From: Pempheris klunzingeri
Lineage: Eukaryota; Chordata; Actinopteri; Acropomatiformes; Pempheridae
DNA length: 64,000 bases
Assembly (NCBI RefSeq): GCF_042242105.1
Contig: NC_092027.1
Location: 17,343,221-17,407,220, forward strand
Reading direction: 5' to 3'
In this document: positions 40,301 through 43,300 of the stretch, piece after piece
Layout: each line of letters begins with the position of its first letter
How positions within the stretch are numbered: the first letter of the stretch is position 1
Notes under the pieces: model-generated
The model's input: the letters and a program-made list of their open reading frames with translations, nothing else
What the model was told of the DNA's origin: nothing
Databases searched by the model: none
Made by a program: the position numbers and the translations under genes

Positions 40301-43300
40301 TCATGGCCCCTAAAGGATGGTTCCTAATGACTTTGGTGATCCTCTGACTTTTCCTCAAGCGCCACCATCAGCTCAACATTTTTAGTTCTTCGGTACTTTC
40401 GGTTCATAACAAAATCCCTTCTTTGTTTTTTATGCTAAATTGTAAACTAAGGTGGTGAACATGGTAAACATTATACCTGCTAGATGAACCTTAGTCATTC
40501 CTAGCAATTTAGCATGCTAATCTTAGCATTTAGCAGAGAGCGCCGCTGTGCAGAAGTACGGCCTCACAAAGCTGCTAAGCGTGGCTGTAGACTCTTAAGC
40601 TTTATGTATGCTTGACTCAAGGGGTTAACAGGAAGCCTGACATAGATAATTATGGAATAGGCTTTGAATTATAGCTCAGCGTTGCATTTCACACATTTAT
40701 ATAACCACGGTAACACTAAACGGGTGTATCATACATGATGTCACACGCCATAGCCTGGGGAGTAACACCTTAACAAAGAAATTCTAAATCCAGCATAAGC
40801 AGCTCAAATCATGTGAAAGCACACCTTCCACCTTTCTTTGAAATTGTTTTGTGTATTTGCTTTTTTTCTTCTTCTCTGCATTTTCTGCCCTCATATTGTA
40901 TCTGTTTATAATTCTCGATCTATAGCTCTTGTAGGTATAAATGTCGCTTTGTTTACATACACTTGCAGTCGTTTCACTTTCTCCACACGTTACACACCGC
41001 TCCATTTCCTGTGCGTCCGTGTGACTTCTGTCAGTGCAGAGCAGCAGCTCGTGATATAGACAGAAAGACAGACAGACAGACAGACAGACAGATACACAGA
41101 CAGACAAACACTGTGGGGACTGGTGCTGCTGTTTAGTGCTGAGGCCTGGCCTGGAGACTGCTGACTGATGCAAAATAGACACACGGGGGTGGAACAGTTA
41201 GAGGGAGGGAGAGAGTGAAAGCTGAAGCGAGACTGATGGCTAGAGAGAGGGAGCGAGGAGTACACAAGAGAGAAGGGTGGGAGGAAGGAGGGAGAGACAT
41301 TATCGAGCCAGTGTGAGTCAGCAGGTTGACAGAGCTTCAGGGTGCGGCTCCAGTACATCACTTCTACTGTAAATTTCCCGGTTTGCTCAGGATCCATCCT
41401 GAAGTCCACCTAAAATATTCAGCAAGTCAGCATATGTCACGGTATGAAGAGTCAAACATGTATGTCAGCACCAAACTTCAGTGTGATGGATGCTGTAGTT
41501 TTTATTGATGATATTTGTGATCACTACACTAGGCACCTGTGAGTTGTCACTAGCACTTTGTTGTTGTTGGAGTCCAATAGAAATAAATGATGGAAACACT
41601 GAATCAAAATACTGTGGTTGAAAAACCTGCATTACATTTATTAGCAGCCTGTGTTGGCCTAGTAAAATGCATTGTGTGTGTGTGTGTGTGTGTGTGTGTG
41701 TGTGTGTGTGTGTGTGTGTGTGTGTGTGTGTGTGTGTGTGTGTGTGTGTGTGTGTGTGTGTGTGTGTGTGTGTGTGTGTGTGTGTGTGTGTGTGTGTGTA
41801 GGACCAGGAAACAACGTGCCAGTGGTGTATGGCCTGGATGTGACGGACGTGTCGAGATGGGAGGAGATGGTGCTGAACCCTGCACTGCAGATACTGGACA
41901 GTCTCAGAAAGGTGGGGCCTCGTGGTCTGAAGTGGGCGCCGCCCGTCAGTCTGCTGTTGGGATGAAACAATAGGCCCAACTCCTCCCCTACTTCCCCTCC
42001 TTTATTATTCCACTCTTTTCATTGCTTTCGTTGTTGTTTTCTCCATCACTCTCCCCTTTTCCATCACTTTACCTGCTTATTTTACCTCCATTTGTTCCTT
42101 TCTACTTCCTAATTTGCTTCCCATCCTTGTTTTCTTGATTTCTTGCAATTGTACTTCTTCCACTTCTTTTATCTCCTTCTTCTTTTCTCTGCTGTCACTT
42201 TTTCTTTTGTACCTCTGTACTTTGCGTTAATTCCTTCCTCCTCTCAATTTTTCTGTTTCCTTCTTTTTTTTCTCCCATTTCCATCTCTATCCCATGCAAC
42301 CTTCAACTCTTCCAACTTTTTCTTTCCATTCTTATTGTTCTTCTTTAAATTTTTTTGTTCTTCCTCTCATTTGGTTATTCTCACAACTTCCTTTCTTCCT
42401 TCTTTTCCTCCCTTCCTTTCCTCCTGTCTCACGCGAATCTTGCATTGCTCCACTTATATCCTGCTATGTAGTTACTACTGAGGATGTAAAATCAGTATTT
42501 CATAGTCTCTTGAATTAAGGAACCCTGTGGAGTTTTTGACCACTAGTATGAGCAAGGTTTTTACAAATGCACCTTTGTTTTTTGTTTGTATTATGCACAC
42601 AACAGCACTGGTGCTCGTGCATTATTCACATCCTGCTGCCAGATTTACACAATTCTGCCTATTGAAGGTTTGCGGTAGGAACGTATCAACAAACATAGTG
42701 GTGCAACGGAAAGGAAATGCATTCAACACGTAGGTCAGACCTCAGAGACACACACCATGCCCTCTGGTGAGTATGACTTAGTTTCATTTTGTACTCCATC
42801 AATTAGGGTGAGGAACCGCCTATTGCACCAGTCAGAGTACAGGGGGCGGAGCTGAGAAACAAACGGAGCCGCCATTCATGCGACGTGTGTGACAAAGTGA
42901 TCATCGGCGACCTGGAGTGGACAGGTGAGGCCGTCGCCCCTAGTCGGGTGTCACAATATGACAACCAACTTCACATGCTGTTCATTTGTGTTTGTGTTGA
43001 GTCATCAAAAGGCATACGGTGTTAAATACACGCTGAAAGCTCTGTCAGATATCTGTGAGTGTTTATTGTTGACGCTCATTTGGGAGCATAATCGACAAGT
43101 ATCACTGAGATGAAACTGTATCCGGCAGTCAAGTCTGTTTATCTTCTTTACCTGCAGCTCACCTGAAGTCCAAAAAGCATCACTATCATGTGAAGAAAAA
43201 GATGAAGTCTGACCCATCATGTGACCAATCCCAGGTTCCCACTGCTACTTCTGCAGCAGAGATTGTGGAGAGCCTCTCAGAGGACTCTTGTCTTGCCACT

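Follow-up and report, generated by a model that had tools for sequence, protein, structure and literature searches.

UG repeats at described 3′ splice sites

The CFTR acceptor, at the intron 8/exon 9 border, carries about 9-13 TG repeats followed by a T tract, and the human apoA-II intron 2/exon 3 acceptor carries a (GT)16 tract that is acted on by TDP-43. To our knowledge, the known UG-repeat acceptors belong to a few human exons and have roughly 10-16 repeats. Alleles of the CFTR site include (TG)12T5 and TG11-T5 (PMC12171016). Exon 6 of GANAB, which is activated by PUF60, is preceded by 27 nt of UG-rich and 40 nt of UC-rich sequence, with branch points directly 5′ of the UG-rich segment, at positions -74 and -80. 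Deleting this segment eliminates the natural acceptor, and PUF60 binds UG-rich motifs with high affinity (PMC6093180). PUF60-activated exons are preceded by UG-rich tracts, and at OGDH exon 4a/4b a large tract of UC-, UU- and UG-rich segments separates the AG from distant branch points (PMC7969005). In human, UG repeats of at least 12 copies are overrepresented around splice sites, the longest having 61 repeats (PMC12276007), and TDP-43 has very high affinity for GU lattices (PMC12697283, preprint).

The acceptor of coding exon 9 of the Pempheris klunzingeri TRIT1 gene resembles these systems and differs from each of them. As in CFTR, where TDP-43 can bind the repeat, a UG repeat stands just 5′ of the AG of a coding exon, within a few nucleotides of it; unlike CFTR, TRIT1 exon 9 has 63.5 TG copies and no T tract. 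As in apoA-II, alternating GT takes the place of the polypyrimidine tract, but the TRIT1 array is about four times longer and flush against the TAG. The UG-rich segment 5′ of the acceptor recalls GANAB exon 6, where the distant branch points lie directly 5′ of it; in contrast to GANAB, TRIT1 has no UC-rich part and its nearest adenine is at -131. The putative TRIT1 branch point would, like those of OGDH, be far from the AG and separated from it by a large tract, which in TRIT1 is pure UG instead of a succession of UC-, UU- and UG-rich segments (PMC7969005); unlike at OGDH, no mutually exclusive exon was noticed in TRIT1. With 63.5 repeats the exon 9 array exceeds the human maximum given in PMC12276007.

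The TRIT1 gene model

The window, that is, the whole stretch of DNA analysed, is 64,000 nt long (C16:17343221-17407220 of a 645.9-Mb, 439-contig assembly). On its + strand we assembled a gene of 11 coding exons, from 13199 to 43384, which encodes 485 aa without an internal stop and in which all junction phases are consistent. Exon numbers count TRIT1 coding exons only, and a slash marks a splice junction. The features discussed below are as follows:

13199..13357, + strand: first coding exon of TRIT1 (P-loop), by assembly and translation
33360..33413, + strand: perfect (TCCTC)10.8 repeat, most of the exon 7 polypyrimidine tract
33658..33735, + strand: exon 8, donor AAAC/gtgagtac
41663..41672, + strand: candidate branch-point stretch, taaaatgcat, the ten bases that separate the array from the nearest AG on its 5′ side (41661-41662)
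41673..41799, + strand: perfect (TG)63.5 array of 127 nt in intron 8 (TRF, 100% matches, score 254)
41800..41801, + strand: acceptor AG of exon 9, context TGTGTAG/GACCAG, directly 3′ of the TG array
41802..41911, + strand: coding exon 9, 110 nt, phase 1 to 0, donor AAAG/gtgggg, by assembly, translation and 3EPH alignment
41806..41807, + strand: alternative in-frame AG, +6 nt, which would drop two residues (PG)
41821..41822, + strand: alternative in-frame AG, +21 nt, which would drop seven residues
42807..42924, + strand: exon 10, encoding most of the zinc finger
43158..43384, + strand: last coding exon, exon 11, by assembly and translation

Comparison of the assembled protein with PDB sequences returned 3EPH (E 1.3e-54, query residues 19-426), the yeast tRNA isopentenyltransferase. 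The residues of exon 9 fall inside this alignment of the 485-aa protein, and by this comparison exon 9 is a genuine exon. Pfam places an IPPT domain (PF01715) at residues 53-330 (E 1.8e-65) and a zf-C2H2_jaz zinc finger at residues 394-418 (E 3.3e-06), while the exon 9 peptide alone has no Pfam match. Judged by its domain make-up and intact frame, the gene is TRIT1, a tRNA isopentenyltransferase of the MiaA/Mod5 type.

Several other features of the gene deserve mention. Two TRIT1 acceptors, those of exons 7 and 9, are made of microsatellites. The acceptor of exon 4 is a CAGCAG tandem of the NAGNAG type (28517-28522) and has 10 pyrimidines in 20 nt, the same as exon 9. Intron 2 (25365-28005) has the donor atatcctttcc, tccttaac near its end and the acceptor ccaac/ATCGAT, and the coding frame across it is intact; by these features it appears to belong to the U12-type AT-AC introns. 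A literature search for TRIT1 with minor introns had no TRIT1 among the matches listed. The same intron holds a longer TG array (26247-26433, 94 copies, 97%) that adjoins no exon of the model.

A TG array in place of the pyrimidine tract

An earlier reading of this DNA, made from the sequence only (hereafter the sequence-only reading), had proposed a tRNA-modification gene with a 110-nt exon 9 that is entered from a bare TG run of about 127 nt leading into the AG, with no pyrimidine tract between. Our analysis agrees on each count: the IPPT and 3EPH matches identify the gene, assembly and translation give 110 nt for exon 9, and TRF delimits the run to 41673-41799. On inspection, the array contains zero adenines and zero AG. 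Ten of the 20 nt ending 3 nt 5′ of exon 9 are pyrimidines, and over the 57 nt up to the same point no pyrimidine run exceeds 1 nt. The other nine TRIT1 acceptors have 10-19 pyrimidines in 20 nt, with only exon 4 as low as exon 9, and pyrimidine runs of 4-55 nt. The AG-free stretch before the acceptor measures 139 nt at exon 9 compared with 21-97 nt at the other nine, which include exon 3, whose intron ends in AC. Among TG runs of at least six copies that end in TAG in the window, the exon 9 site is the only one on the + strand, and there is one on the - strand. The exon 9 donor is ordinary for TRIT1 and agrees with the consensus at seven of nine positions.

An Rfam scan of the window yielded no structured RNA above the cut-off. 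Folding of 41641-41830 gave no ordinary structure, with a free energy worse than that of shuffled sequences (z +1.92), and on this result an ordinary hairpin joining the branch point to the AG is unsupported. Among the matches listed in literature searches on TRIT1 splicing, TG/UG splice-site repeats in fish and apoA-II GT tracts, the exon 9 site was absent.

The coding frame points to the AG that closes the array

We tried 15 AGs between 41450 and 41829 as the exon 9 acceptor and translated the resulting proteins. The full-length frame runs through the AGs at 41800, 41806 and 41821, giving 485, 483 and 478 aa, respectively. From 41450 to 41801 there are 13 AGs, and 41800-41801 is the only one that yields the full-length protein. 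Upstream acceptors that would make the array exonic were rejected, as 12 of the 12 AGs in 41450-41799 lead to truncated products of 335-424 aa. With the exception of two minor in-frame alternatives within exon 9, the coding frame requires the AG that closes the array as acceptor.

Skipping of exon 9 would, according to the sequence-only reading, shift the frame and remove the zinc finger. This proved correct on translation: a TGA starts 2 nt into exon 10, after 335 aa, and the zinc finger lies beyond it. The stop is 113 nt 5′ of the last junction. The usual rule for nonsense-mediated decay (NMD) sets its limit at 50-55 nt upstream of the last junction, and NMD is therefore expected for the skipped transcript. 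Beyond the mere loss of a zinc finger, the exon 9-skipped transcript is thus a predicted NMD target; a 335-aa product escaping NMD would keep the whole IPPT match (53-330).

A predicted distant branch point

The adenine nearest to exon 9 on its 5′ side is at 41671, 131 nt away. No adenine is found from 41672 to the acceptor AG, and no AG in 41663-41799. Because the array is free of adenine, an adenine branch point would have to lie at least 131 nt upstream of exon 9, a point that goes beyond the sequence-only reading. Within the candidate stretch 41663-41672 the best-scoring adenine is 41665, 137 nt from exon 9, with a score of 2.91 under an approximate matrix. Under the same matrix, applied to eight other TRIT1 acceptors with the U12-like intron 2 left out, the best scores are 2.42 for exon 8, 2.91 for exon 10 and 4.06-5.32 for the six others. 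The candidate stretch of exon 9 is unremarkable in motif. If the branch adenine lies 3′ of the last upstream AG, a distant branch point follows of necessity; a branch adenine as much as about 12 nt 5′ of the AG at 41661-41662 would lie farther still from exon 9.

Other exons in the genome follow TG arrays

The exon 9 site fits the pattern (TG)22TAGG, which occurs 250 times (127 + 123) in the 646-Mb genome. Read backwards, the same pattern occurs 96 times in the whole genome, whereas (TG)22TACG occurs 103 times forward and 215 times backwards. Since the ratio is reversed for TACG, backward counts do not serve as a fair reference, and we dropped the excess of 250 over 96 as proof of splice-site enrichment.

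We then read 100 of the 250 places (L002-L101, on contigs C1-C9; the TRIT1 site, on C16, is outside this set). The frame scanned at each place was the longest one after the AG, cut at simple repeats and at least 30 residues long, and 58 of the 100 places qualified. Matches above the Pfam curated cut-off were obtained at 9 of the 58 scanned places. In addition, six Pfam-negative peptides that looked exon-like by eye were compared with PDB sequences and three matched; no PDB sequence match was found for the exon-like peptides of L013, L035 and L038. The matches are listed here by place:

L002: Iso_dh, above the Pfam cut-off
L011: GFO_IDH_MocA_C3, above the Pfam cut-off
L027: Prokineticin, above the Pfam cut-off
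L029: Sde2, above the Pfam cut-off
L030: LRRNT, above the Pfam cut-off
L056: Ion_trans, above the Pfam cut-off
L064: LRR_8, above the Pfam cut-off
L084: PMT, above the Pfam cut-off
L085: Thyroglobulin_1, above the Pfam cut-off
L043: PH (1.4e-4), below the Pfam cut-off
L073: WD40 (9.1e-4), below the Pfam cut-off
L012: SEC13 (2.2e-13), PDB match
L028: Son of sevenless (2.1e-13), PDB match
L099: NF-kappa-B p105 (5.8e-12), PDB match

At least 12 of the 100 places directly precede a recognisable exon, nine by a Pfam match above the cut-off and three by a PDB sequence match. This fraction is a lower bound, because TRIT1 exon 9 itself has no Pfam match on its own. In nine of the 12 exons the match starts no more than four residues from the AG, and in the others it starts at residue 8, 9 or 16. 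The arrays at the 12 recognised exons measure 50-140 nt; the SEC13, SOS1-like, isocitrate-dehydrogenase and prokineticin exons adjoin arrays of 101-140 nt. By these matches the exon 9 acceptor is not unique, with at least a dozen other exons alike in the same genome. The array is real and extreme, yet it is a recurrent arrangement and of a known kind. Elsewhere in the genome, at L037 (G000:C3, close to 13995616), 427 nt of uninterrupted TG end in TAGG.

As a control, TAGG sites away from arrays were taken from the same loci: 342 were eligible, 165 had a frame of at least 30 residues, and 38 of these were drawn randomly. None of the 38 gave a match above the Pfam cut-off, compared with 9 of 58 at the arrays (one-sided Fisher p 0.008). 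Three random sites gave weak matches that started 16-30 residues in (two overlapping L011 peptides and one at L012). With every match up to E 0.01 included, the comparison is 11 of 58 at arrays versus 3 of 38 at random sites (p 0.11). For (TG)22TACG, 20 of the 103 places were fetched, seven had frames long enough to scan and none of the seven matched Pfam.

We also searched for a code common to the arrays that abut exons, comparing 13 of them (TRIT1 included) with 88 other arrays. The proposals that exon-abutting arrays are longer (p 0.28) or have longer AG-free flanks (p 0.42) were unsupported. Pyrimidine content 5′ of the array did not differ significantly (p 0.11), and an adenine no more than 3 nt away was not significantly more frequent (11 of 13 versus 58 of 88, p 0.22). 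Motifs resembling a branch point, in the 15 or 40 nt on the 5′ side, scored slightly better at the exon-abutting arrays (p 0.028 and 0.015, uncorrected and with the approximate matrix). The 88 other arrays probably include real exons that went unrecognised, blurring the contrast.

How the array may be used

In our preferred reading, the array is a working 3′ splice region for exon 9, as the reading frame suggests, with a distant branch point and UG-binding factors as its readers, and exon 9 is mostly included in the mRNA; we hold this composite reading to be reasonably probable. In such a mechanism, the U2 snRNP would use a branch adenine immediately upstream of the array, at least 131 nt from exon 9, and the spliceosome would cross the AG-free UG array to the first AG beyond it. 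The alternating U's may be read by UG-tolerant or UG-preferring factors such as PUF60, U2AF65 or CELF, and TDP-43 may coat the same UG lattice and tune splicing efficiency. Transcripts that skip exon 9 would run into the exon 10 stop codon and be degraded by NMD; weak inclusion would thus mean a lower dose of TRIT1 and no new protein. That exon 9 is mostly included is most likely, because many such acceptors are present in the genome, some of them in core genes. The acceptor, unusual as its build is, most likely behaves like an ordinary splice site and is probably mostly constitutive. The long arrays at the SEC13, SOS1-like, isocitrate-dehydrogenase and prokineticin exons, as matched by sequence, argue that such predicted acceptors are used well enough.

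These long arrays also bear on a second reading, in which the array is a microsatellite dial: its length would set exon 9 inclusion through TDP-43 (or CELF), and alleles would differ in TRIT1 dose through skipping and NMD. Inclusion of CFTR exon 9 falls where UG repeats are many and U's few, with TDP-43 as the main inhibitor (PMC12171016). The TRIT1 acceptor is without any U tract. In human, splice-associated repeats are overrepresented in the 100 bp preceding their exons, and binding by TARDBP is related to the length of GT repeats (PMC13174678, preprint). Skipping of exon 9 would also break the frame and give the predicted NMD target described above. However, arrays of 101-140 nt adjoin the four exons just named, so that length alone seems not to abolish use, and exon 9 has a donor of the usual quality for TRIT1, with seven of nine consensus positions; we regard the length-dependent reading as doubtful. 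Less likely again is a switch based on pUG folds, in which the (UG)63 tract may hold up to five left-handed quadruplexes of 12 repeats each, the fold shortening the path from branch point to AG or blocking U2AF, and TDP-43 and the fold excluding each other. Each pUG fold requires 12 repeats, and several fit in a long pUG tract (PMC12276007); the RNA of the array would offer 63.5 repeats, above the human maximum of 61 in that source. Mutual exclusion of the fold and TDP-43 binding is described in PMC12697283 (preprint). The secondary-structure program, which does not model the pUG quadruplex, gave no ordinary structure (z +1.92).

The origin of the array is a different matter from its use, and a neutral origin is compatible with a working, mostly included acceptor. 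A TG array may have grown by slippage in a U-rich acceptor tract and been tolerated by splicing without a regulatory role, a history for which we see the chances as evenly balanced. The window has 15 perfect TG runs of at least 24 nt on the + strand and 11 on the - strand, the genome holds 250 (TG)22TAGG places, the exon 7 tract is likewise a perfect microsatellite, (TCCTC)10.8, and exon-abutting arrays are no longer than others, all of which is consistent with drift, although a neutral origin leaves room for an effect on splicing efficiency. Dinucleotide arrays are generally difficult to assemble, and the array or its assembled length could be wrong. Yet the coding frame resumes exactly at the AG, the contigs are long (28-37 Mb for C1-C9, with the window beyond 17 Mb on C16), and other arrays of similar length adjoin recognisable exons; an assembly artefact is extremely improbable.

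Nearby observations in the window

Just inside intron 8 there is a possible cryptic exon of 91 nt (33828-33918), whose acceptor, ttgtcctccgcag with the junction at its end, comes after (GT)19 at 33777-33814 and whose donor, gg/GTATGT, is followed by TG runs to 33955. The layout is similar to that of TDP-43-repressed cryptic exons. Pieces of a piggyBac-like transposase lie in different frames at 49570-51631 on the + strand. The last piece (50561-51628) matches DDE_Tnp_1_7 (E 1.1e-48) and carries a C-terminal zf-Tnp_2, and a further DDE piece is at 50296-50694.

Meaning of the TG acceptors

In one genome, at least 12 exons of recognisable genes have a pure TG acceptor tract of 50-140 nt, in addition to TRIT1 at 127 nt. 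A much wider proposal would be that bare (TG)n/TAG acceptors form a broad class, with some members in core genes, where a very long UG lattice stands in for the polypyrimidine tract and forces the branch point 50-140 nt or more away, co-regulated by TDP-43 coating versus pUG folding, in which repeat length sets dose through skipping and NMD; taken as a whole this is distinctly improbable. The TG acceptors offer natural material for asking by what route the spliceosome arrives at an AG over 130 nt away from the branch point, whether PUF60, U2AF, CELF or TDP-43 is the reader of pure UG, and whether nascent introns form pUG folds. If length matters, the dose of TRIT1, and with it i6A on tRNA, could vary between individuals.
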